From: a bacterium BMS3Abin11
GTDB taxonomy: Bacteria; Pseudomonadota; Gammaproteobacteria; BMS3Bbin11
DNA length: 64,000 nt
Direction: 5' to 3'
Assembly (NCBI GenBank): GCA_002897635.1
Contig: BDTD01000004.1
Coordinates: forward strand, 62,001-126,000
Each line of letters opens with the position of its first letter. Positions within the stretch are counted from its first letter, which is position 1. This document shows, piece after piece, positions 1-62,343 of the stretch. Position numbers and translations under genes: made by a program. The notes beneath the pieces were generated by a model. That model was not told where the DNA came from. It was given only the letters and a program-made list of their open reading frames with translations, and made no database searches.

Positions 1-2
1 TT

Positions 3-983
3 ATGGACATACGAGAGTGTTACGAAAAAGGAAGAGATACAAAAAGCATTCTTGATTTTATAAAAACAGAAAATCAAAACCTGAAGCTAGTCGAAGAGAG
101 CGCCCATCAAGATATTGAATGGGAAAATGAGTACTGGGATAACTATATTGAATTGTACAATCTTGAAGCCATACTTGCCACACCAAGCTCCGGCCTTGAG
201 CAACAACCCCTCTTTAAAGAAGGGAAGATCCAATACGAAAAGAAGATGGCTGAATCTGAGAAAACCTTAGATGACATTAATCTACGGACTATCAAAAAAC
301 TAAAAGAATATCTGACTAATGCCAAGATTATTGGGATTGGATACATATTCCCTATTCTAGACAATAAAACCTCACCTCAACTTATAACCCCTGATTTCTG
401 GCCTTATTTAACGATTGACCAGGAAGCGGACGAAGCCACTGGAGGGAATCTTACATTCAAGTCTGTCCGCTACTATGATTTTACAAAATCAACTAGCTCG
501 GCGCGGAAAAAATTCATTGCTGCCACGAGAGAACGGTACGAGGCAGAGGTATCCAATAATTCATTTACCAACTTCTCAGATGTAACCATCACCCTCGAAC
601 CACTTATTAGTATTCGATGGAATATTTCAGGGGACGACCGAAGACCAAAATTGAATCTAAACAACGCTAAACTAATAAAACAAGGCGGCGAATTTAACAA
701 GCCTGGTGGTATTCTTTTATCGATGGCAAAAGGCGAGTACCCCAGCACAAAAGAAAGAAAGTACGTATCCGACCTAAGGAAGATCATTCAGGAGTGGTTT
801 AAAACTGATGAAAACCCTTTCTATATAGATAAAAAGACTTACCGCCCAAAGTTTACTATTATCCTGAAAAGAGACGATGAACGCCAAAAGGACAGAGCTA
901 CGTCCATGTCATATCGTGATGACATCAGAGCGGACTTTAAGAATGAAGATGACGATGCTGGCGAGTGGCTTAAAGGACAATAG
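3..983 (+). CDS. Hypothetical protein of the accessory region (possibly 5'-truncated by the window edge)
   Basis: I do not recognise this 326-residue protein. It has no signal peptide or membrane segment. It is rich in charged residues (Lys, Glu, Asp), with an acidic tail ending in a run of Asp/Glu near residues 315-322. The ATG at position 3 is the first possible in-frame start seen, but only two bases precede it, so the real start may lie outside the window. The gene is followed by an intrinsic terminator and then by mobile-element genes on the same strand (HTH protein, Cys-motif protein, RepA-like ATPase), so it is probably part of the same element. Function unknown; that it is a real gene rests on its length and lack of a better competing frame. 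Confidence 0.7.
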   Translation: MDIRECYEKGRDTKSILDFIKTENQNLKLVEESAHQDIEWENEYWDNYIELYNLEAILATPSSGLEQQPLFKEGKIQYEKKMAESEKTLDDINLRTIKKLKEYLTNAKIIGIGYIFPILDNKTSPQLITPDFWPYLTIDQEADEATGGNLTFKSVRYYDFTKSTSSARKKFIAATRERYEAEVSNNSFTNFSDVTITLEPLISIRWNISGDDRRPKLNLNNAKLIKQGGEFNKPGGILLSMAKGEYPSTKERKYVSDLRKIIQEWFKTDENPFYIDKKTYRPKFTIILKRDDERQKDRATSMSYRDDIRADFKNEDDDAGEWLKGQ

Positions 984-989
984 TTAAAA

Positions 990-1104
990 TGTAACAAGTT
1001 AATCCGGTTACAATCAACATAACCCGCTGATAAGGCGGGTTTTTTTATGTCTTTTGTAACAAGTTACACCTATTAGGTGAAGGCTCAAAAAAACGCGCCG
1101 TAAC
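990..1104. promoter_or_regulatory. Cluster of GTAAC/GTTAC motifs upstream of the HTH gene (candidate operator or iterons)
   Basis: GTAAC occurs at 991, 1056 and 1100, and its complement GTTAC at 1007 and 1063. The 12-mer TGTAACAAGTTA is repeated exactly at 990-1001 and 1055-1066, and GTAACAAGTTAC at 1056-1067 is a perfect palindrome. The cluster lies just upstream of a small HTH protein of a phage-like element, where autoregulatory operators or replication iterons are common. That role is inference. Confidence 0.4.
1021..1046 (+). terminator. Intrinsic terminator after the 326-aa gene
   Basis: A perfect 7-bp stem (AACCCGC / GCGGGTT) with a 7-nt loop is followed directly by a run of T. It lies 38 bp after the stop codon of the upstream gene, as expected of a rho-independent terminator for that transcript. 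Confidence 0.85.
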
Positions 1105-1135
1105 ATTTAGTCACGATTTAAGGAGACATAAAACT

Positions 1136-1333
1136 ATGGACTACCACGATACAAAAGCAGCAGCAGGAAAACTTGGGATATCTCCACGAACACTAGAGAG
1201 ATGGAGGCTTATAGGCGAAGGCCCTGATTACTGTAAGTTTGGCAGCCGTGTGATGTATCCAGATACTGCGCTGGATGAATACGCACAACGAAGTATTCGC
1301 CGTTCCACTTCTGATACCGGCCAAGCCGCGTAA
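1136..1333 (+). CDS. AlpA/excisionase-like helix-turn-helix protein
   Basis: A 65-residue protein with a MerR-like winged helix-turn-helix of the HTH_17/excisionase type. The segment around residues 9-26 (AGKLGISPRTLERWR) is the helix-turn-helix, and the stretch ending in FGSRVMYPDTALDEYA is the usual wing and closing helix. Proteins of this kind act as excisionases or as AlpA-type activators that switch on prophage and satellite genes. A strong Shine-Dalgarno (AAGGAG at 1120-1125) supports the ATG at 1136. The Cys-motif protein gene begins 10 bp after its stop codon, so the two are probably cotranscribed. The domain is clear; excisionase versus transcription factor cannot be decided from sequence alone. 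Confidence 0.8.
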   Translation: MDYHDTKAAAGKLGISPRTLERWRLIGEGPDYCKFGSRVMYPDTALDEYAQRSIRRSTSDTGQAA

Positions 1334-1345
1334 GGGAGTGCTGTG

Positions 1346-1687
1346 ATGACGACAGTAAATAAAACCGCCGCTATGGTCGAAAATGAGGCCATACAGCCCG
1401 TTTTTTCAGAAGAACTACCTAGCTCTATGCAACTGGGCCTCCAACACGAAGAAATCACTAACACGGCCTCAAATAAACGCATTACAACCCCTTCAGTAAA
1501 GGAGATAGAAGCCAAAGTAGCACATATGGCATCTAAGCCAGGTCTCCGCAGTAAAGTAAATGCAAACTGCCTCTGGTGCTCATACGATCCTTTAGATATA
1601 GGGACATGGCGTCAACAGGTCGAACAATGCGGGGTTTCAAACTGCCCCCTTTTCAGCGTAAGACCAACAAGTAGGAGCAAGAAATGA
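1346..1687 (+). CDS. Small phage/integrative-element protein with a Cys4-like C-terminal motif
   Basis: A 113-residue protein whose N-terminal half looks disordered. The conserved part is at the C-terminus: Cys-x2-Cys, then YDP, GTWRQQVEQC, then CPL and VRP. I recall this type of motif in small proteins of phages and integrative elements of gammaproteobacteria; its function is not known to me, though spaced cysteines suggest metal binding. A GTG lies at 1343 directly before the ATG at 1346; the ATG is better spaced from the GGGAG at 1334-1338. It sits between the HTH protein and the replication-type ATPase on the same strand. Confidence 0.7.
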   Translation: MTTVNKTAAMVENEAIQPVFSEELPSSMQLGLQHEEITNTASNKRITTPSVKEIEAKVAHMASKPGLRSKVNANCLWCSYDPLDIGTWRQQVEQCGVSNCPLFSVRPTSRSKK

Positions 1688-1702
1688 TTCTACAAATAAA
1701 AA

Positions 1703-1728
1703 ACGCCCTGATGGTTAGATCAAGGCGT
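1703..1728 (+). terminator. Hairpin after the Cys-motif gene, possible weak terminator
   Basis: Arms ACGCCCTGAT and ATCAAGGCGT pair over 10 positions with one mismatch around a 6-nt loop. The downstream T-run is short (CTTGTATT), so termination may be partial. It lies 16 bp after the stop codon of the upstream gene. Confidence 0.45.
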
Positions 1729-1777
1729 CTTGTATTCATTGGCGTGAATACTTATACAAACGTTGAGGGTGTTTGTA

Positions 1778-2194
1778 ATGAAGAATATATCACATAAACA
1801 TCTAAAGCGACCACCCTATTCAGCTTATCTATGCGCAGCACTATGTCACCCTGAAAAGTGGCCCCAGTATGCAGGTACTTCCGCTGATGGCTCATGCGTC
1901 AGCATCTTTTTAATCGTCGGATCGAAAGCATGGGAGAAAGCCAGCACTCTTGAAAACTCCCACCTGTTTCTGATGCTTCCACCTGGTGACGATCCATTAC
2001 TTTACGACTGGAAGCCACTGAAAGGACACGACCCGATTATTGCCATTATCGAAGGTGATCCCCCATCAGAAAAAGAATATTACGACCTGGCATCCGCACT
2101 CATACGTGATGGTGTGCAACGGTTCACTAGACCAGGAAAAGACGGAAGCGCTATTCGTCATCTAAGTGAGGAGGTAATCAAATGCACAGTTTAG
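1778..2194 (+). CDS. Hypothetical protein of the mobile element
   Basis: I do not recognise a family for this 138-residue protein. It has no signal peptide and no obvious motif. The reading frame is open from a TTG at 1763, but the ATG at 1778 follows a Shine-Dalgarno-like GAGGGT at 1765-1770 at normal spacing and is the better start. Its 3' end overlaps the start of the RepA-like ATPase gene by 13 bp, which suggests translational coupling and a linked role in the element, perhaps in replication. That link is inference from position only. Confidence 0.6.
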   Translation: MKNISHKHLKRPPYSAYLCAALCHPEKWPQYAGTSADGSCVSIFLIVGSKAWEKASTLENSHLFLMLPPGDDPLLYDWKPLKGHDPIIAIIEGDPPSEKEYYDLASALIRDGVQRFTRPGKDGSAIRHLSEEVIKCTV

Positions 2195-3291
2195 AAAAAC
2201 CTCCCGAAGAATTATCCACTGGTGATGTAATTGTCGAAATGCCGGCAAGAAATATTACACGTCTTACCAGTACATCTTATGCAGATATTCAACCTCAAGA
2301 AATTGATTGGTTATGGCCAGGGCGTATCGCTATCGGGAAGCTGACATTAATTGCCGGTGATCCTGGTTTAGGTAAATCTATGGTAAGCATCGCATTGGCA
2401 AGCCATGTTTCAACCGGATCACCTTGGCCTGTAGATAGATCAATATGTCCAGTTGGAAATGTTCTGATGTTAAGTGCAGAAGATGATCCAGGCGATACAA
2501 TCAGGCCACGACTGGATGCCGCTGGTGCTGATGTTAACCGTGTAACAAATATCGGCTTGGTTGATGCCCATGATAAAGAAGGAATGCCTATTAAGCGCGG
2601 GTTTGACATGTCCTGTGACATACCGCTACTTGACGATCTTCTGATGAAAATCCCTGATTGCAGGCTAGTGGTTATTGATCCAGTTTCTGCCTATCTAGGA
2701 AGTACAGACAGTCATAATAATGCAAATGTACGCGGACTACTTGCGCCAATTGGTGAACTGGCTACCCGGCATAATGTGGCGATAGTGGCTGTTACGCATC
2801 TAAATAAGGGTAATGGTGGTAACGCTATGTATCGGGCAACTGGATCACTCGCATTCGTTGCAGCGGCCAGAGCATCATTTCTAGTAACAAAGGATAAGGA
2901 TGAACCATCACGGCGTTTATTTATCCCGATGAAGAACAACCTGGGCGAAGATCAAACAGGATTTGCCTATCACATTGATTGTGCTGATAATGGCGCTCCA
3001 TTCATCGCCTGGGAACCAGATGCAGTTGATGTCTCAGCAGATGAAGCTCTATCAATTAATGACGAATATCGCACCGAAAGAGATGAAGCAAAGGACTGGT
3101 TACTTGAAGAATTAGGGCAAGGGAATACTCTAGTCGCAGAATTACAAAAACAAGCAAAGCTCGCCGGTCATTCATGGCGAACAGTCCAGAGAGCAAAAGC
3201 AGATTTAAAAGTCACAGCAAAACGAAAAGGTTTTGGTAGTGAAGGCCTCTGGCACTGGTCTTTACCAGACGGCACTTTTAGCAATAACTAA
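2182..3291 (+). CDS. RepA-like AAA ATPase (AAA_25, RecA/DnaB-fold), replication helicase of a mobile element
   Basis: A 369-residue P-loop ATPase. The Walker A motif is GDPGLGKS near residues 58-65 and the Walker B strand is LVVIDPVSAYLG near residues 158-169. The AVTHLNKG stretch fits the sensor strand of the RecA/DnaB fold. The C-terminal third looks like a winged-helix DNA-binding domain. AAA_25 proteins of this size are the hexameric helicases or loaders of plasmids, integrative elements and satellites (RSF1010 RepA-like). The start is supported by a GAGGAGG just upstream and by overlap with the previous gene. It marks the segment as one able to replicate itself. No separate primase is visible in the window. 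Confidence 0.85.
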   Translation: MHSLEKPPEELSTGDVIVEMPARNITRLTSTSYADIQPQEIDWLWPGRIAIGKLTLIAGDPGLGKSMVSIALASHVSTGSPWPVDRSICPVGNVLMLSAEDDPGDTIRPRLDAAGADVNRVTNIGLVDAHDKEGMPIKRGFDMSCDIPLLDDLLMKIPDCRLVVIDPVSAYLGSTDSHNNANVRGLLAPIGELATRHNVAIVAVTHLNKGNGGNAMYRATGSLAFVAAARASFLVTKDKDEPSRRLFIPMKNNLGEDQTGFAYHIDCADNGAPFIAWEPDAVDVSADEALSINDEYRTERDEAKDWLLEELGQGNTLVAELQKQAKLAGHSWRTVQRAKADLKVTAKRKGFGSEGLWHWSLPDGTFSNN

Positions 3292-3593
3292 GGATGCCTC
3301 CCATAGAAGGCCACCCCCTGTGGCCATAACTTGGCACTCTATGGTGAAAGCCCCTTATACACTACGTTTACAGCATATTTTTACTGTCATTTATCCATAG
3401 GGTGCCACTATTGAATAACAGGGTATCTATGGATATAACCAATTGCCTCCCTTCGGGCGGAATTACAGGTGAGCCATACATGAGGCCGCCATCCAAGTCC
3501 AAAGTGACACATTATTTGTAAGGGTGTAGGATGGCTGTTTACAATTACAAAAACTAATTGATAGCAATATCATGTACTAAGGGGGTATTGGTT
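3292..3593. other. Intergenic stretch with an imperfect inverted repeat, no gene seen
   Basis: Between the RepA-like gene and the first lipoprotein there is no convincing ORF. It contains a 13-bp inverted repeat, TGGCACTCTATGG at 3332-3344 and CCATAGGGTGCCA at 3395-3407 (one mismatch, 50 bp apart), and a smaller GGCCA/TGGCC hairpin at about 3309-3325. A replication-origin or operator role is possible given the neighbouring RepA-like gene, but nothing shows it directly. Confidence 0.4.
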
Positions 3594-4160
3594 ATGAGAA
3601 AGGTTCTTTTCTATTTATTTTTATTGGTATTGCTTACGGGCTGTGGAGGTGGCGGTGGTGATACAAGCAGTGGCGGCGGTGGCGATTTTTCTCCCGAATA
3701 CATTGGGACATATAAGGGAACACTAATTATAAATGCCACTGGCCCAGGCGGTTCTGTATCCACACCACTCCCTGTAACTATTGTAGTAAGCAACGATGGA
3801 AGAGTTGATGTCGCATTTGATGGTTTAACATCCGGTGGTGGAAGCTGTACTGGTGATGAAAGCCCCGTTTTTATAAATGGAAATTCATTTAACGAGAGCG
3901 CCACATTTACTTGCCAGTTCCCAGACCTTGGTTCTTGTAGCGTTGATGCCACGATGAATGGCAACATTGCTAACAATGCAATTTCTGGTACCGGCTCATT
4001 CGTATATAACTGTACTGCTGGAATTATTAATGCATCAATCTCTTACACAGCTGTAAAAGTGCAATCTCAAGCTCTCAGTGCTCAGAGTATTGGTGCTCCT
4101 TCTACTAACGGCGGTGCTTTTGTAGATATTGCTGTCGGCATATTAACTAGAAATCAGTAA
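3594..4160 (+). CDS. Gly-rich hypothetical lipoprotein
   Basis: A 188-residue predicted outer-membrane or periplasmic lipoprotein. A type II signal peptide is clear: hydrophobic stretch at residues 4-14 and a lipobox LTGC with Cys17 as the lipidated residue. A flexible Gly/Ser-rich linker follows the Cys. The rest looks like a beta-rich domain with several cysteines (GGGSCTG, FTCQF, GSCSVD, YNCTAG) that may form disulphides. The frame is open from TTG 3558, but ATG 3594 starts the signal peptide directly and follows an AGGGGG at 3580-3585. Family not recognised. It lies between the RepA-like gene and a second small lipoprotein, as cargo of the element. Confidence 0.7.
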   Translation: MRKVLFYLFLLVLLTGCGGGGGDTSSGGGGDFSPEYIGTYKGTLIINATGPGGSVSTPLPVTIVVSNDGRVDVAFDGLTSGGGSCTGDESPVFINGNSFNESATFTCQFPDLGSCSVDATMNGNIANNAISGTGSFVYNCTAGIINASISYTAVKVQSQALSAQSIGAPSTNGGAFVDIAVGILTRNQ

Positions 4161-4404
4161 ACACAAGCGATAATTCAGATAGTTGCTATATCGCTACTCT
4201 CGTAGCATAAACCGCTACCTAACTGAATCTGGGAAGGCGTTTGGTAAAAGCCGAAACGTAATTGAGCACTTTGTTGGCCCTGCTAGAAAAAAATACAATT
4301 GGGCTTATTACTGTTGATAGAGTAATACCGGTAGTTGTCAACTATAGAATTGACATCAACGATTTGTTGAGTGCATATTTTATACACTATGTGGGGATGT
4401 GTAT

Positions 4405-4737
4405 ATGTTTAAAACTGTTACAGCATATTTATTAGGAATATTTATCCTTTCCGGGTGCGCCACAACAATAAAAACTAACAACTTAAGTATCGGAATGACC
4501 AAACAAGAAGTGATCGCCGTAATGGGTGAACCGATCAGCACAAGCGCCATATCAGGTCTTGAGGTTTTTCGTTACCATCTTCAAACTGCAGAGCAAATTA
4601 TATGGAAAGGTGGACACAATGAATATTTTGTTCGGTTCGTTAACGGAAAGGTTGAGTCGTACGGGAAAATGGGTGATTTTAATTCAACCAAAGTGCCGGA
4701 AACCAAATCAACAATAGACTTGAATGTAAACAAATAG
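4405..4737 (+). CDS. Small lipoprotein with SmpA/OmlA (BamE-like) domain
   Basis: A 110-residue lipoprotein: signal peptide with lipobox LSGC (Cys about 18), then a compact domain with GMTKQEVIAVMGEP, the hallmark start of the SmpA/OmlA fold. BamE itself belongs to this fold and stabilises the outer-membrane BAM complex, but many small lipoproteins of mobile elements share the domain without that role. This copy lies in accessory DNA, so I would not call it bamE. A GTG at 4399 is an alternative start; ATG 4405 is better spaced from the GTGGGG at 4391-4396. Confidence 0.7.
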   Translation: MFKTVTAYLLGIFILSGCATTIKTNNLSIGMTKQEVIAVMGEPISTSAISGLEVFRYHLQTAEQIIWKGGHNEYFVRFVNGKVESYGKMGDFNSTKVPETKSTIDLNVNK

Positions 4738-4892
4738 TCATTCGCTATCCCGCTTGCAGATATCGACTATCTCTAATATTTTGTTACTGTCATATTGTTA
4801 AATTCACCTACAAAATTAAGCAATGGAATTTTCATTTGCAAAAAAACTGATACACTTTCTTGAGTTAAAAAGTCGAGAATACATTCTAATTT

Positions 4893-5624
4893 ATGAATAC
4901 ACTGACATCACTAATTCCCGATATAGATGTTTTCTTATCTCTAGCACCAGAAGAGTTGGCAGAAGTTGTTTTACAACTTGCCAGCGAACATAGGCAGAGC
5001 AACCATATTCACGTACAAGCAATCGAATCACAAATAGTTGGTGATGTTGGAGGCAATGACGGCTATCCAAGAAACCAACATAAAAACGCCACATTAGCTC
5101 TCGCTGAGGCTTGGAATTGGCTATTAACGAATGGTTTCATTATCCCTGAACCAGATATTAATGGTAGTAATGGCTGGATGGTGCTGACTCGCCTTGCAGA
5201 TAAAGTCTTAGCCAACGGAACTTTTAAGACTTACGTCCGCAGTATTGGTTTTCCAAAAACTCTTCTTCATCCTTCCATCGCTGATGAAGTTTGGATAGAC
5301 ATAGTTCGCGGGGACCTAGAAACTGCTGTTTTTAAGGCTTTCCGCGCTGTCGAGATTGCTGTACGCGAGGCTGGAGGATATTCCACCACTGACATAGGTA
5401 CATCTCTTGTACGCAAGGCATTTGATAAAACAAATGGGCCACTCACTGACGAAGAACAGCCTGAAGCAGAATGTGACGCATTGGCACACTTATTTGCCGG
5501 AGCCATTGGCTCCTACAAAAATCCTCATTCCCACAGAACAGTAACAATTAATGACCCAACGGAAGCACAGGAAATGGTGATCTTGGCCAGCCACTTACTG
5601 CGTATCATTGATAGCAGACGATAG
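4893..5624 (+). CDS. TIGR02391/Ymh-family protein, divergent HEPN-like RNase candidate (abortive-infection type cargo)
   Basis: A 243-residue cytosolic protein. The C-terminal half, from about residue 140 (DLETAVFKAFRAVEIAVREA) to the end, matches the TIGR02391 (Ymh) family as I know it, including the family's signature near residue 210, here GSYKNPHSHR. That signature resembles the RNxxxH active-site motif of HEPN ribonucleases, with Lys in place of the usual Arg. The N-terminal half holds a helical region and a segment like a winged helix (WLLTNGFIIPEPD). Proteins of this type occur in mobile elements and defence islands. The location, between lipoproteins and a terminase small subunit, fits anti-phage cargo. 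Family assignment is fairly sure; the defence role is inference. Confidence 0.7.
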   Translation: MNTLTSLIPDIDVFLSLAPEELAEVVLQLASEHRQSNHIHVQAIESQIVGDVGGNDGYPRNQHKNATLALAEAWNWLLTNGFIIPEPDINGSNGWMVLTRLADKVLANGTFKTYVRSIGFPKTLLHPSIADEVWIDIVRGDLETAVFKAFRAVEIAVREAGGYSTTDIGTSLVRKAFDKTNGPLTDEEQPEAECDALAHLFAGAIGSYKNPHSHRTVTINDPTEAQEMVILASHLLRIIDSRR

Positions 5625-5785
5625 GTTTATTCACATATATGGGGTGGTTTACCTATTTTCTAGCGCGAAATATTGCTCGGTGTATACATAATATTCCCAC
5701 CGCCGATAATGTGCCAGGGGGGGGTATCCCATAAAAAGAAACATTATTTTGCTATACATTGACCGCTCCCCCACCACACGGGACG

Positions 5786-6247
5786 CTAGTGCTTAAATGG
5801 CTCGGTTTCGCCCTTTTCGTCGCTACTACTGAGCAGTAAAGCCAGCTTTTCGTTGATCTCTTCAGGTGTGCGCTTATCAGTAAGAATAAGCTCAGTTGGT
5901 AGCTTATCACCAGCTCGATCTATGAATCCGAAGGCTATGTCTTTTCTCACTGTTGCGGATGCTGTTTCATCCATCATCATATCTCTTAACACCATAACCG
6001 CAGCTGTTGCCTCGTGTTGGTACAGCCCACGCCTGAACCTTGCTATAGCCTCTATTATCTTAGGTTTGCGTAGCAACTCCCATGCTCTCGTTCTAGCTCC
6101 CCCTTCTGCGTATCCAGCTGCTATAGCACTTTTTGCCTTTTTGCCACCACTAGTAACAAATTCACTAACAAACTTGGCTTCTAACTCAGTTAAGCCGGTT
6201 TCAATGTCAATCGAATATCCGCCTGGTCTTGGTTGTTCTGTGCTCAT
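5786..6247 (-). CDS. Phage terminase small subunit (Terminase_2 type)
   Basis: A 153-residue protein. Residues about 18-55 (LTELEAKFVSEFVTSGG, then AKSAIAAGYAEGGARTRAWELL) are the N-terminal helix-turn-helix DNA-binding domain typical of small terminases. A helical oligomerisation region follows, with an acidic tail. Small terminases recognise packaging sites on phage DNA and hand it to the large subunit. No large terminase, portal or capsid gene is present in the 6 kb to its left. A stand-alone terS beside a tRNA attachment site is the arrangement seen in phage-inducible chromosomal islands, where it redirects packaging to the satellite. It is encoded opposite to the rest of the segment. Confidence 0.8.
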   Translation of the reverse strand: MSTEQPRPGGYSIDIETGLTELEAKFVSEFVTSGGKKAKSAIAAGYAEGGARTRAWELLRKPKIIEAIARFRRGLYQHEATAAVMVLRDMMMDETASATVRKDIAFGFIDRAGDKLPTELILTDKRTPEEINEKLALLLSSSDEKGETEPFKH

Positions 6248-6363
6248 ATCTGGTGCTTCAATAACGCTCCTTTAATAGACTCTAATTCTATCAGAATTGG
6301 TAACTTATTGGTAACTCACTTTATTTGAATAAAGACGAATATTACATAAGCCATTGTTTTATA

Positions 6364-6439
6364 TGGTGCCGGGAGGCGGAATCGAACCGCCGACCTACTG
6401 ATTACGAATCAGTTGCTCTGCCGACTGAGCTACCCCGGC
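6364..6439 (-). tRNA. tRNA-Thr (anticodon CGT)
   Basis: The minus strand folds as a full cloverleaf with an encoded CCA. The acceptor pair is GCCGGGG / TCCCGGC, the anticodon loop is TTCGTAA with CGT, and the T-loop is GGTTCGATTCC. Anticodon CGT reads ACG, threonine. Its 3' end (6364) faces the accessory segment 1-6363, which makes it the probable attachment site of that element. Confidence 0.95.
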
Positions 6440-57561: not shown

Positions 57562-57638
57562 GCCCCGGTAGCTCAGCTGGATAGAGCAGCCGCCTCCTAA
57601 GCGGCAGGTCGGACGTTCGAATCGTCTCCGGGGCACCA
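57562..57638 (+). tRNA. tRNA-Arg (anticodon CCT)
   Basis: A 77-nt cloverleaf with encoded CCA. The acceptor stem is GCCCCGG / CCGGGGC, the anticodon loop is CTCCTAA with CCT, and the T-loop contains GTTCGAATC. Anticodon CCT reads AGG, arginine. Its 3' half (from 57592) is repeated exactly at 59653-59702, so this is the intact copy of an attachment site. Confidence 0.95.
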
Positions 57639-57641
57639 TAT
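57592..57641 (+). repeat. Left attachment repeat (attL) of the mini-island, 3' half of tRNA-Arg
   Basis: Fifty bases, starting in the anticodon stem and ending 3 bp past the CCA, are identical to 59653-59702. A tRNA 3'-end direct repeat is the expected product of site-specific integration by a tyrosine integrase. Confidence 0.9.
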
Positions 57642-57745
57642 TTACAATGGCTTACGTACTTTTTGCACTTACTCCATTCCCTCAAGGACTTACAGGGTTA
57701 GGTGTTGTCTTTTGCCCCATGCAAGCTGCCGTATATAAAAATATT

Positions 57746-58069
57746 TCAGATCAAAACTTCCAGCCCTTTCCTATCTAACAGATTGAGAAGTTTCAGTGAT
57801 GGCCCACTTGGGTGCCTGGCACCCGTCTCCCACTGCCTTATTGTCGAAGGACTGGTATTAAGGATTGATGCAAACACCGTTTGGCTTAACTTATTTCGAT
57901 TGCGCAATTCACGAATACTCTTACTGGAATATTCTGGAATAGATTCAAGGCAAAGTGCATCATATTGTTGCATACGACGCAGGTCGATGAAGCCTGCATC
58001 ATGCAGATCTGCTGCAGTTTCATGCACTGCATCCAATATTTTGCTGTTAGACTTAATCCTGCTTGTCAT
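57746..58069 (-). CDS. XRE-family antitoxin of TA pair 1
   Basis: A 107-residue helix-turn-helix protein. The C-terminal HTH is LSQTVFASILNTSPSTIRQW followed by ETGARHPSGPSLKLLNLL, a standard XRE/Cro type. Its ATG at 58069 overlaps the end of the toxin gene by 17 bp. The order toxin then antitoxin and the HTH match HigB-HigA systems, in which the antitoxin also represses the promoter. An in-frame ATG at 58102 is inside the toxin gene and less likely. Confidence 0.82.
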   Translation of the reverse strand: MTSRIKSNSKILDAVHETAADLHDAGFIDLRRMQQYDALCLESIPEYSSKSIRELRNRNKLSQTVFASILNTSPSTIRQWETGARHPSGPSLKLLNLLDRKGLEVLI

Positions 58070-58436
58070 GACAAATCTCCTGTAATGCACCACTAGAAAC
58101 ATGATTGTCTAGTTGGCTTGAGTTAAGTTTCAATAGATCAATAGCGATATCCTGTAAAGCCTCAAGCTCCTTCTTATTGATATTGGAACGGTCACTCTTC
58201 TCGAATCCGTAAACAAAAAACCACCGATTTTTCCTGTTTGTCGCTATCAGGGTACGGCTACTTCCACTTTTTCCTCTGCCAGGTAAAGCAATTCGTTTTT
58301 TAAGTATGTTGCCACCCAGATCAGCATCGAACAGTCCAGCTTCCATTTCAGATACGGCCGTACAGAGGGCCTTGTCAGTTAAACTTATCTTTCGCATCCA
58401 GCGAAAGAAATTCCGTGTTTTAAAAACTCTTTGCAT
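58053..58436 (-). CDS. RelE-type toxin (PF06296-like) of TA pair 1
   Basis: A 127-residue toxin of the RelE/HigB fold, subgroup with MQRVFKTRNFFRWMRK near the start, GGNILKKRIALPGRGKSGSSRTL in the middle and RWFFVYGFEKSDRSNI. That middle pattern is characteristic of the DUF1044 (PF06296) toxins. Members cut mRNA on the ribosome. It is upstream of its antitoxin and overlaps it by 17 bp. It lies inside the 2-kb island at tRNA-Arg. Confidence 0.85.
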   Translation of the reverse strand: MQRVFKTRNFFRWMRKISLTDKALCTAVSEMEAGLFDADLGGNILKKRIALPGRGKSGSSRTLIATNRKNRWFFVYGFEKSDRSNINKKELEALQDIAIDLLKLNSSQLDNHVSSGALQEICHDKQD

Positions 58437-58742
58437 GGCCTTACTATAACACTATGTATTATAGATTCCCATTTGAGGATATTCAATTCGCAGATTTATA
58501 GAACGTGACCAAAACGTGACGCAAAACTGCCTACTGAATTGGTCACCACCCTGCTCCAAGTATGTAAACACCGGGTTTGCGGGCATCTGGTGTTATAGAT
58601 TTTGGATAAAGCCTTGAACCAGAGAAGCGGCGGGTCGGTCGCTGGCTTTTCCTCCTGCAGCACCTTACTCCATTTATAGTTTATACGGACATTTTTCCTA
58701 CATTTCTTCTGTGAACGTGACAAACCGAATGGTCACAAAGAG
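58437..58742. other. Spacer between the two TA pairs, with GTGAC repeats
   Basis: No gene is supported. GAACGTGACCAAAACGTGAC then GCAAA at 58501-58525 recurs nearly exactly at 59529-59553. Another GAACGTGACAAACCGAATGG then TCAC is at 58713-58736. Such repeated GTGAC motifs are what arm-type integrase sites or operators look like; they may flank an insertion that brought in pair 2. Confidence 0.45.
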
Positions 58743-59081
58743 CTATGCCGCTGCATGCTTGTTATTAAGTGATGAAAGCTTATCAAGCGTATCAGGATAC
58801 TGGCGTACCATCATGATTAATGCGGCCGCTTGAGCATTAGGTTTTGCTCTTCCCTGCTCCCAGTTTTCAAGTGTGCGAATAGAAACTCGAATACGGCGAG
58901 CGAAAACTGCACGTGATACATGTAACTGCTCTCGCGTTTCCCGGATCAATTCAGCATCAATTTGTAATGGCGGAAGATCATCCACTTCATGTGTACGCAG
59001 GGTTATTTTACCCGCGCGTTCATGCTGCATAGACTCAACGCCATCCATCAATTCATCAAATAATTTACGCTTCTTAGCCAT
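58743..59081 (-). CDS. XRE-family antitoxin of TA pair 2
   Basis: A 112-residue HTH protein. The HTH near residues 50-95 reads LHVSRAVFARRIRVSIRTLE then NWEQGRAKPNAQAAALIMMV, the NadS/HigA-like pattern. Its ATG shares one base with the toxin stop (TAATG). It would neutralise the RelE-like toxin next to it and repress the operon. Confidence 0.85.
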   Translation of the reverse strand: MAKKRKLFDELMDGVESMQHERAGKITLRTHEVDDLPPLQIDAELIRETREQLHVSRAVFARRIRVSIRTLENWEQGRAKPNAQAAALIMMVRQYPDTLDKLSSLNNKHAAA

Positions 59082-59425
59082 TACTTTTTTCTCCTGGCTG
59101 CCAGCTCCATCTGAATCGCCTGTTTCAATCGCTTCTTTTCTTCAGGGGTTAAATCACTTATTTCATCTTTATCATACAGCGTGAAAAACCATATCTGGTG
59201 ATCTGTTGTCAGGTGATAGTAAATCACCCTGAGACCACCTCGCTTGCCTTTACCTCGTTTGGGATCTTTCCAACGAACTTTACGAAAACCACCTGTACCG
59301 GGCATCAGATCACCCTGTTGAGGGTTTTCTAATAAGACTAGCTGCAAAGCTCTGTATTCCTGATCGTCTAAATATTCCGGTAATAGGCGTGTAAATAAGG
59401 GTGTTTCGATGAAGACCAGTTTCAT
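59081..59425 (-). CDS. RelE/HigB-type toxin of TA pair 2
   Basis: A 114-residue toxin. FIETPLFTRLLPEYLDDQEY near the start, GGFRKVRWKDPKRGKGKRGG and LRVIYYHLTTDHQIWFFTLY in the centre, then DLTPEEKKRLKQAI, are typical of RelE/HigB toxins. It is upstream of its antitoxin and coupled to it. It belongs to another RelE subgroup than the toxin of pair 1, so the two pairs are not a recent duplication. Confidence 0.88.
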   Translation of the reverse strand: MKLVFIETPLFTRLLPEYLDDQEYRALQLVLLENPQQGDLMPGTGGFRKVRWKDPKRGKGKRGGLRVIYYHLTTDHQIWFFTLYDKDEISDLTPEEKKRLKQAIQMELAARRKK

Positions 59426-59652
59426 CGTATTAAGTATACGTTACTTGCGTATATTTTCAACTGTTGGTGAGATAACTAAATATTCTCGACTCAGCAAAAA
59501 CTTTTCCTGCTTATGTTGGCATTAAAGTGAACATGACCAAAACGTGACACAAATCTGTCACTTCCAGTCCATTCCTGTCACTTCCAGTCACGTTAGCGCG
59601 GGGCGTTGCGTGATAACTTATTGATTTAATTGACTGTAAAAATCATCCTCGT
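59426..59652. other. Right end of the mini-island, no gene
   Basis: No ORF. TGTCACTTCCAGTC is repeated directly at about 59556-59569 and 59578-59591, the second followed by ACGTT, and a copy of the GAACATGACCAAAACGTGAC motif lies at 59529-59548. These repeats just inside the attachment site resemble arm-type integrase-binding sites. No integrase gene is present. Confidence 0.5.
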
Positions 59653-59702
59653 GCCTCCTAAGCGGCAGGTCGGACGTTCGAATCGTCTCCGGGGCACCAT
59701 AT
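59653..59702 (+). repeat. Right attachment repeat (attR) of the mini-island
   Basis: Exact 50-bp copy of 57592-57641 (tRNA-Arg 3' half with CCA and the next three bases). The sequence before it does not match the tRNA, so this is a partial, non-functional tRNA copy left by integration. It defines the right edge of a 2.06-kb insertion. Confidence 0.9.
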
Positions 59703-59922
59703 ATTTCTATATAACCCTGGCCATTATTACTCTTCTCCTGAATCTCTGATCAGGAGAAGTCGTGAGAGGATGCTATTCGGGGTGATAGTGTGGAGTTCGT
59801 TCTGCCCTTATGATTTATTCTGCCCCTCCCACCCTCTCATCTATGCCATCTTGAATCAGGCCTGCCAATAGCATGCTTCACTATATACTTTTCATGTTTG
59901 AACGCGTTAACCTGTGCAGACT

Positions 59923-62343
59923 ATGGCTGAAATCGAAAATTATATCCGTTGGTTTGAAAAACTGGGTATAGAAGATATCCCGCTGGTTGGTGGAAAGAAT
60001 GCCTCCCTCGGTGAAATGTACCGCGAACTGACCCCCCAGGGCGTGAAAATACCCAATGGTTTTGCCATTACCGCCGATGCCTACCGCTATATGCTCGATA
60101 AGGCCGGGGCATGGGATGCCCTGTATGAGGCATTAGATGGACTCGATGCCAGCGATGTAAATGACCTGGCACGACGTGGCGCAAAAGCACGAGATATTAT
60201 TTATGGTGCAACATTACCTGAAAATTTACGTGAACAAATTCTAACTGCATTTAATGGCCTAAAAAAACAATACCCGGGTAATATCAGCGTTGCTGTGCGT
60301 AGCTCTGCCACCGCGGAAGATTTGCCTAATGCCAGCTTTGCCGGGCAGCAGGACACCTACCTTAATATTGAAAGTGAAGAGCAATTGCTGGATGCCTGCC
60401 GCCGTTGTTTTGCCAGCCTGTTTACTGATCGTGCGATTCATTACCGTATCGATCAGGGCTTCGAGCATTTCAAAGTCGCGCTGTCGATTGGTGTTATGAA
60501 GATGGTGCGTTCTGACCTTGCTGCCAGTGGTGTCATGTTTTCCCTTGATACCGAAACCGGTTTTCGTGATGTGGTGTTTATTTCCGGAGCTTACGGACTG
60601 GGTGAAAATGTAGTGCAGGGTGCGGTAGACCCCGATGAGTTTTATGTACATAAACCTACTTTTAAACAGGGCCATCGGGCTGTGTTACGCCACACTTTGG
60701 GGTCAAAAAAGATTCAGATGCAATATGCTACCGGCCGCACCCGCGAAGCCACGCAGAATGTACCAACACCTAAAGAAGACCAGCAACAATTCTGTATCGA
60801 TGATAAGGATGTTTTAACCCTGGCTGATTACGCCATTAAAGTAGAAAACCATTACAGTAATAAAGTGGGCCATAACAAACCCATGGATATGGAATGGGCA
60901 AAAGATGGAATTGATGGCGAACTATATATGGTTCAGGCACGCCCTGAGACCGTTGAGTCACAAATATCAGGCACCACTCTCGAAATATTCCATCTAAAGG
61001 AAACCGGCGAAACCCTCGCCCATGGCAATGCGGTAGGCGCACGTATCGCAAGTGGTCGCGCACGGCTGATTCGCGATATTAGGCAGCTCGATGAATTCCA
61101 GCCCGGCGACGTCCTGGTAGCAGACACTACTACGCCAGACTGGGAACCGGTGATGAAAATTTCTGCCGCCATTGTCACTAATCGAGGCGGGCGCACCTGC
61201 CATGCCGCAATTATCGCACGAGAACTGGGGATTCCAGCCATCGTCGGTTGTGATAATGCCACCACAGTAATACCGGATAACGAAGCCATTACAGTAGATT
61301 GCTCACAGGGCGACCGAGGACGTGTTTATCGCGGTGCGCTGGACTTTGAAAAAGAGACCACCGATCTGGGCACACTGATACGCCCTGCTACTGAGATCAT
61401 GATTAATTTGGCTAACCCGGACATCGCTTTCAAAACCTCCTTTCTGCCCAATGATGGCATCGGATTAGCGCGTATGGAATTCATTATCAACGAATCCATC
61501 AAAGCACACCCAATGGCCTTATTGCATCCAGAACGGGTGCGCGATTCGGCTCAGCGCCAACAACTCGATACATTAAGTCTCGGCTATGACAGCCCGACTG
61601 ATTTTTTTGTGAAACAGCTGTCAGAAGGTGTCGGCACCATTGCTGCAGCCTTCTGGCCCAAGCCGGTGGTGGTACGCATGTCAGATTTTAAATCCAACGA
61701 ATATGCATCTCTGCTGGGTGGGCAATACTTTGAACCCACTGAAGACAACCCCATGCTTGGCTTTCGCGGAGCATCCCGGTATACACACCCTGATTATGCC
61801 GAGGGTTTTGCGCTGGAATGTGCCGCCATGAAGCGCGTGCGTGAAGACATGGGACTGACCAATGTTATATTAATGATCCCCTTCTGCCGGACAATTGCAG
61901 AGGGCAAACGGGTACTGGAGGCAATGGCCATGAATGGACTTAAACAGGGTAAAAATGCTTTACAGGTTTATGTCATGTGCGAGATTCCTAACAATGTGAT
62001 GCAAATTGATGCCTTTGCACAATTATTCGATGGTTTTTCAATTGGCTCCAACGACCTCACCCAACTCACCCTGGGTGTCGACCGTGATTCAGAAATCGTT
62101 GCCTTTGATTTCGATGAGCGTGACCCTGGCGTTAAAGAAATGATTCGTCTGGCAGTAGAAGGCGCACGGCGTAATGAACGTCATTCTGGACTGTGTGGAC
62201 AGGCGCCTTCAGATTATCCTGAAATGGCGGAGTATCTGGTTGAAATCGGTATCGACTCAATCAGCCTCAACCCGGACACGATACTCAGCACAACCAGGCA
62301 TATATTAGAAATTGAAAAACAGCTCGGTCGTACCAGGGCCTGA
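59923..62343 (+). CDS. ppsA: Phosphoenolpyruvate synthase
   Basis: An 806-residue enzyme making PEP from pyruvate and ATP in gluconeogenesis. The N-terminal ATP-grasp domain has VGGKNASLGEMYREL and AVRSSATAEDLPNASFAGQQDTYL. The central swivelling domain has the phosphorylated His in GGRTCHAAIIARELGIPAIVG (about residue 425). The C-terminal TIM barrel has GSNDLTQLTLGVDRDS and the catalytic Cys in HSGLCGQAPSD. An upstream GTG at 59914 is possible; no clear ribosome site was found for either start. It is followed by an alpha-glucan phosphorylase gene after 5 bp. Confidence 0.96.
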   Translation: MAEIENYIRWFEKLGIEDIPLVGGKNASLGEMYRELTPQGVKIPNGFAITADAYRYMLDKAGAWDALYEALDGLDASDVNDLARRGAKARDIIYGATLPENLREQILTAFNGLKKQYPGNISVAVRSSATAEDLPNASFAGQQDTYLNIESEEQLLDACRRCFASLFTDRAIHYRIDQGFEHFKVALSIGVMKMVRSDLAASGVMFSLDTETGFRDVVFISGAYGLGENVVQGAVDPDEFYVHKPTFKQGHRAVLRHTLGSKKIQMQYATGRTREATQNVPTPKEDQQQFCIDDKDVLTLADYAIKVENHYSNKVGHNKPMDMEWAKDGIDGELYMVQARPETVESQISGTTLEIFHLKETGETLAHGNAVGARIASGRARLIRDIRQLDEFQPGDVLVADTTTPDWEPVMKISAAIVTNRGGRTCHAAIIARELGIPAIVGCDNATTVIPDNEAITVDCSQGDRGRVYRGALDFEKETTDLGTLIRPATEIMINLANPDIAFKTSFLPNDGIGLARMEFIINESIKAHPMALLHPERVRDSAQRQQLDTLSLGYDSPTDFFVKQLSEGVGTIAAAFWPKPVVVRMSDFKSNEYASLLGGQYFEPTEDNPMLGFRGASRYTHPDYAEGFALECAAMKRVREDMGLTNVILMIPFCRTIAEGKRVLEAMAMNGLKQGKNALQVYVMCEIPNNVMQIDAFAQLFDGFSIGSNDLTQLTLGVDRDSEIVAFDFDERDPGVKEMIRLAVEGARRNERHSGLCGQAPSDYPEMAEYLVEIGIDSISLNPDTILSTTRHILEIEKQLGRTRA

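Follow-up and report, generated by a model that had tools for sequence, protein, structure and literature searches.

The window analysed here, a stretch of 64,000 nucleotides, contains an intact tRNA-Arg(CCT) gene, a displaced copy of its 3' half, two toxin-antitoxin (TA) pairs between them, and a PEP synthase-like gene beyond. The features of the locus are listed in window coordinates with the strand in brackets.

57562-57638 (+): intact tRNA-Arg(CCT), the integration target, on the attL side (ARAGORN; Rfam RF00005, 65.6 bits)
57592-57641 (+): core copy 1, the tRNA 3' half from the anticodon stem on (direct-repeat and whole-genome match search)
57642-58617 (no strand): unit 1, made up of left end, TA pair 1 and right end, with core 1 and the degenerate core as its limits
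57746-58102 (-): TA1 antitoxin, HTH_3 (PF01381, E=7e-10), its start possibly an internal ATG at ~58069
58053-58436 (-): TA1 toxin, RelE (PF06296, E=4e-46)
58458-58486 (-): promoter-like site directly upstream of the TA1 toxin, TTGAAT-17-TATAAT (consensus scan alone)
58501-58529 (+): D3 copy 1, paired 11-bp putative arm-type repeats (GTGAC at 58505 and 58516; GTCAC at 58542)
58625-58667 (+): degenerate tRNA-half core between units 1 and 2 (local score 15)
58668-59652 (no strand): unit 2, made up of left end, TA pair 2 and right end (repeat, middle-core and arm-site comparisons)
58717-58736 (+): possible left-end arm-type sites of unit 2, weak (GTGAC at 58717; GTCAC at 58732)
58743-59081 (-): TA2 antitoxin, HTH, HigA-like (PF13560/PF01381)
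59081-59425 (-): TA2 toxin, HigB-2 type (PDB 5ja9 HigB-2, E=3e-26, residues 1-102)
59433-59460 (-): promoter-like site directly upstream of the TA2 toxin (consensus scan alone)
59529-59591 (+): D3 copy 2 and putative right-end arm sites (ATGACC at 59533; GTGAC at 59544; GTCAC at 59557, 59577 and 59587)
59653-59702 (+): core copy 2, the displaced tRNA 3' half, attR (44/44 identical in sister species G003)
59699-59850 (no strand): 152 bp to the right of core 2, absent in G003
59914-62343 (+): PEP synthase-like flanking gene, which starts a block common only to G003 among seven relatives searched

A sequence-only reading of this DNA had described an intact tRNA-Arg(CCT) whose 3' half recurs as a perfect 50-bp repeat, and ARAGORN, Rfam and a repeat search confirm this: the copies at 57592-57641 and 59653-59702 are identical, spaced by 2061 bp, and form the sole long direct repeat in the 56-64 kb part of the window. 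The displaced fragment lies on the 3' side of the tRNA gene in the same orientation. Apart from weaker matches, which fall in other tRNA genes and in the cores of an array on contig C14, the tRNA-Arg(CCT) sequence occurs in the whole genome only as these two copies. ORF listing and family searches likewise bear out that the repeat encloses two complete TA pairs with toxins of different groups and no integrase, transposase or phage gene. These pairs are the only genes with family matches between the cores, and by the same searches neither unit contains integration or transfer genes.

The locus had been taken for a single island with two TA pairs, but a decayed core lies between them, at 58625-58667; its local score of 15 compares with a mean of 7.2 and a maximum of 13 among 1000 dinucleotide shuffles. 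The 29-bp D3 repeat, GAACRTGACCAAAACGTGACRCAAAWCTG, is found ~100-130 bp before this decayed core and again before the perfect core 2. The 2.06-kb 'island' is therefore two tandem units of ~1.03 kb (~1,026 and ~1,035 bp, measured between core starts), with one TA pair each, alike in layout and unrelated in cargo. Both attL and attR are kept: the outer 50-bp cores are perfect and the right end has arm-type sites; the inner core of unit 1 has decayed. A further core was sought at the distal end of the PEP synthase block, with only weak matches (scores of 8-9). That block, from window position 59914 onward to ~131800 in contig C4 coordinates, encodes PEP synthase-like, glucan phosphorylase, Usp/SpoIIAA and P-type ATPase proteins, and a related PEP synthase and P-type ATPase are present on contig C25.

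That two units with unrelated TA pairs are so nearly equal in length and match in layout suggests a standard cassette more than two chance deletions, and so counts against the reading developed below, in which both units are remnants of larger elements. These features raise the possibility of active non-autonomous cassettes, ~1-kb units of attachment ends plus one TA pair that would be moved in trans by an integrase with common arm-type sites, with a logic like that of a MITE or an integron cassette. The decay of the core between the units argues against this, and on all the evidence we regard active cassettes as possible but doubtful. The D3 copies (58501-58529 and 59529-59557) are 90% identical, which would also fit a single larger island that has lost its middle, the second D3 and the third core being by-products of internal duplication, and deletion is evident both in the C14 array and in G003. 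This alternative is decidedly unlikely, as the right ends of the two units are little alike apart from D3 and core and the cargo is unrelated, so that full cargo replacement would have to follow the duplication.

Both TA pairs are intact and toxin-first on the minus strand, each with its toxin and HTH antitoxin in one operon, the arrangement of type II TA systems of the RelE/HigB superfamily. Relatives of the TA1 toxin, mostly 54-70% identical, occur in many proteobacteria, and none of 40 lies beside a tRNA gene in the stretches fetched (up to 4 kb either side), which speaks against active cassettes; the nearest TA2 relative (85%), found in another family (G052), lies downstream of a tRNA-Leu gene and speaks for them. 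The tRNA-Leu gene directly upstream of this relative (L190:686-1081, G052:C1) apparently contains a group I-like intron, as judged by reading the sequence. Neither toxin was found in the congeners G001, G003 and G005, a distribution that also favours cassettes; the same TA genes standing without a second core, which the sequence-only reading had counted against an island, are thus not a feature of these relatives. On the other side, no second copy of either unit was found, and comparison of the island DNA with phages gave no match and with plasmids only two short matches, confined to toxin genes. More distant relatives of the TA2 toxin (<60% identity) are present in 674 plasmid records. Among viral contigs, none was found with the tRNA-Arg(CCT) core or with TA2.

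The GTGAC boxes of D3 lie 11 bp apart, a form that we take to be that of tyrosine integrase arm-type sites, and these pairs look like putative integrase arm sites because similar pairs adjoin integrase genes in viral contigs. A related pattern occurs at 37 viral loci, of which 10, several being near-copies of each other, are within ~210 bp of a tyrosine integrase gene; many of the other 27 belong to one virus group and have the motif inside or beside a coding gene. The exact 18-mer is present in a single viral contig, ~0.2 kb from an integrase gene. Within ~0.5 Mb of stretches around tRNA genes, GTGAC-N6-GTGAC occurs four times where ~1 occurrence is expected (an estimate from uniform base frequencies), each time no more than 130 bp from a tRNA gene or from a half that is displaced or decayed. 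This association with tRNA genes and halves, and with integrase genes in the viral loci, supports the view that the units are remnants of integrase elements.

At the right end of unit 2 the sites lie 120, 109, 96, 76 and 66 bp before the core. The first four spacings (120, 109, 96 and 76 bp) are exactly those of the right end of an unrelated tRNA-Met island on contig C20, and the two ends align with a local score of 65 (maximum of 500 shuffles, 46). The left end of the C20 island resembles in turn the end that adjoins an intact tRNA-Asn integrase on contig C17 (score 66; shuffle maximum 41). The shared spacing is further support for remnants, and its conservation across different tRNA targets, like the resemblance of the C20 and C17 left ends, also suits active cassettes. 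The left-end sites of unit 2 are weak, with 8-11 of 500 shuffles reaching the alignment scores, and the left end of unit 1 is without arm sites, a point against the remnant reading.

D3 also precedes the two toxin starts, by 65 and 104 bp, where it might act as an operator or promoter element common to both TA pairs and not as an attachment arm. We consider this highly improbable and disfavour it, since promoter-like sites lie between D3 and the toxins, the toxins come from different groups, and the motif is found both beside the tRNA-Arg(CCT) gene of relative G004 and at tRNA-Met and tRNA-Asn ends that are without such TA genes.

Other islands in this genome were identified by a screen of 40 tRNA genes. 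Those at tRNA-Thr on C4 (8 kb) and tRNA-Pro on C6 (7.8 kb) each contain an integrase, whereas the islands at tRNA-Met(CAT) on C20 (3.1 kb; L269:138-3277; C20:43138-46277) and at tRNA-Met on C33 (6.4 kb; L255:4363-10762; C33:79363-85762) are without an evident one. The C20 island encodes a weakly ParC-like protein and an unknown 474-aa protein, and its displaced core is followed by a solitary second left end with arm sites; the C33 island holds mostly unrecognised genes and one metallo-beta-lactamase-fold protein. The left edge of the window (1-6439) is inside the ~8-kb tRNA-Thr(CGT) island, whose intact tRNA is at 6364-6439 (-), with the displaced half at C4:60286-60334 and, immediately beyond the window edge, an Arm-DNA-bind_3 integrase at C4:60498-61850. 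At C23:55054-55256 (L259:54-256) the 3' end of a tRNA-Met gene recurs ~90 bp beyond the gene as a perfect 35-bp copy, possibly a near-complete deletion remnant.

A second array in the genome lies on contig C14 (L053:4357-12414). It has four tRNA-Arg(ACG) 3' halves, three of them perfect, and the three units between them contain, respectively, Fic (mob_myst_B, mobile mystery protein B)+HTH and RHH+ParE, AbiEi/AbiEii, and SoFic. The last core is beside a broken integrase, and a C-terminal integrase fragment appears again beside an earlier core. The array fits accretion followed by integrase loss, with toxin-type genes left behind, and the stages of decay that it displays support the remnant reading of the tRNA-Arg(CCT) units. 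An intact tRNA-Arg(ACG) with a full integrase lies at the end of contig C4; at that flank G001 has other genes upstream, and the contigs of G003, G004 and G005 stop there.

Resident integrases with an identifiable site are paired with Thr, Pro, Asn, Arg(ACG) and possibly Ala tRNA genes. An integrase cognate to this tRNA, which the sequence-only reading had proposed looking for elsewhere in the genome, was sought, and none paired with tRNA-Arg(CCT) was found in this genome, which counts against active cassettes. The C17 integrase was rejected as the cognate: it has arm-type sites in common with the island but is paired with tRNA-Asn, leaving it a candidate for arm binding only.

In the sister species G003, the same tRNA is accompanied by the same displaced core beside the same PEP synthase-like gene, and an IS200-like (RAYT-type) transposase gene takes the place of the TA pairs, an arrangement that we infer from two contigs joined by a ~93-bp overlap. 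Because the arm-type sites are of fixed spacing and G003 has the same displaced core with another filling, identification of the 50-bp repeat as true integrase attachment ends is strongly supported. Assembly or repeat artefact is an extremely improbable source of the arrangement: the assembly comprises 38 contigs and the G003 evidence depends on that overlap, but the focal island lies within a 144-kb contig with unique flanks, and G003 independently has the displaced core beside the same gene.

Between G003 and the focal genome, 7 of the 40 bp before the displaced core differ, compared with 9 differing positions among 500 of the left flank (p=5e-5); the right flank is 3.6% different. This divergence of the right end suggests, from the alignments, separate insertions of related elements, which together with the altered filling is as the remnant reading would have it; faster divergence could instead reflect relaxed constraint, and to that extent the point is weakened.

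Among other relatives, G006 carries beside general secretion pathway-type genes a core with this type of end (by eye); in G004 the arm motif follows tRNA-Arg(CCT) after 47 bp, without a second core within 9.6 kb; and G002 has short core fragments only in the 5.9 kb available. An ancestral duplication of the tRNA half, which would have undercut the original interpretation, is ruled out by the absence of the repeat in these available contigs of G002 and G004. The empty tRNA-Arg(CCT) site expected in relatives was not found in clean form, because the right flank also varies between species. Nor was a parental integrase element at tRNA-Arg(CCT) found in the relatives examined, except a 5'-side one in G009, and this counts against the remnant reading. 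In G043 (L077, G043:C113) and G009 (L078, G009:C10), copies of the tRNA-Arg(CCT) 5' half (1-39 and 1-43) lie upstream of the gene, accompanied in G009 by an integrase; they would mark integration on the 5' side that uses this same anticodon site. G054 (L075:1-303, G054:C41) was also seen to have three tRNA-Arg-like 3' fragments in tandem, repeating every ~140 bp.

With perfect outer cores, an intact tRNA and a degenerate middle core, we think it probable that the locus consists of tandem remnants of the cis-mobilizable element (CIME) type, two integrase elements reduced to attachment ends and TA operons and probably immobile now. Two related tyrosine-integrase elements would have entered the anticodon-loop site of tRNA-Arg(CCT) one after another, the order of these events being one that we infer, and each would have been pared to its attachment ends and one TA operon with loss of the integrase and other cargo. 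The TA pairs have probably survived because their joint loss would be toxic: recombination between the perfect outer cores would remove both at once, and retention by addiction is plausible. Of the two fates originally offered, the evidence leans to the deletion remnant; the other, a minimal island mobilized in trans, is possible. The 2.06-kb pair could still plausibly be acted on by an integrase with matching core specificity because the outer cores are perfect and the right end of unit 2 keeps its arm-type sites, and both units would leave as one because the middle core has decayed. Such movement would now require an incoming element, and the island is probably static at present because no matching integrase was found in the genome.

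A broader proposal, which we rate as rather unlikely, is a class of minimal ~1-kb integrase-less TA cassettes with standard attachment ends that would insert at tRNA genes via borrowed integrases with common arm-type sites, giving integron-like, tRNA-anchored toxin arrays. If common, TA-only units would explain the gathering of unrelated TA and Fic modules at tRNA genes, and the question of whether TA genes hold islands in place or travel alone would become testable on a 2-kb element with defined ends.

The HigB2-HigA2 pair of Vibrio sits in an integron cassette. The TA2 toxin matches the HigB-2 of Vibrio cholerae over nearly its full length, although here TA2 is in a tRNA-bounded unit; as for likeness to an integron cassette array, the limits found at this locus are tRNA halves and no integrase gene adjoins it. 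By the definition in PMC5704250 (after Pavlovic 2004 and Bellanger), CIMEs share with the tRNA-Arg(CCT) units an att site at either end, the absence of genes for integration or transfer, and tandem accretion at one target gene, a likeness that is read here from att ends and gene content. The units differ in their size of ~1 kb, in having a single TA pair as cargo and in the decayed internal core; as to the origin of CIMEs by deletion from an ICE or IME, the C14 array shows deletion stages, and no parental element was seen at tRNA-Arg(CCT). The ssrA genomic islands of Dehalococcoides, 15 of which are without an integration module, likewise form tandem arrays in which direct repeats of the 3' end of an RNA gene set the units apart, but they involve a serine recombinase, a 20-bp repeat and reductive dehalogenase cargo (PMC3146451). 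The tRNA islands of Islander share the tRNA, the displaced 3' fragment and the anticodon-type site (PMC4383910), whereas the focal island is without a tyrosine integrase of its own; TA-only units are not listed there because an integrase and at least 2 kb are demanded, and candidates without an integrase or <2 kb are dropped (PMC4383910). Acinetobacter dif (pdif) modules (for example PMC13141974 and PMC6449649) are similarly small and moved by a recombinase encoded elsewhere, and TA genes feature in publications on them, but they are bounded by Xer dif sites and mostly plasmid-borne, in place of the tRNA halves with arm sites seen here. Set beside these systems, what is unusual at this locus is the minimal size, the TA-only cargo and the presence of two arrays in one genome.
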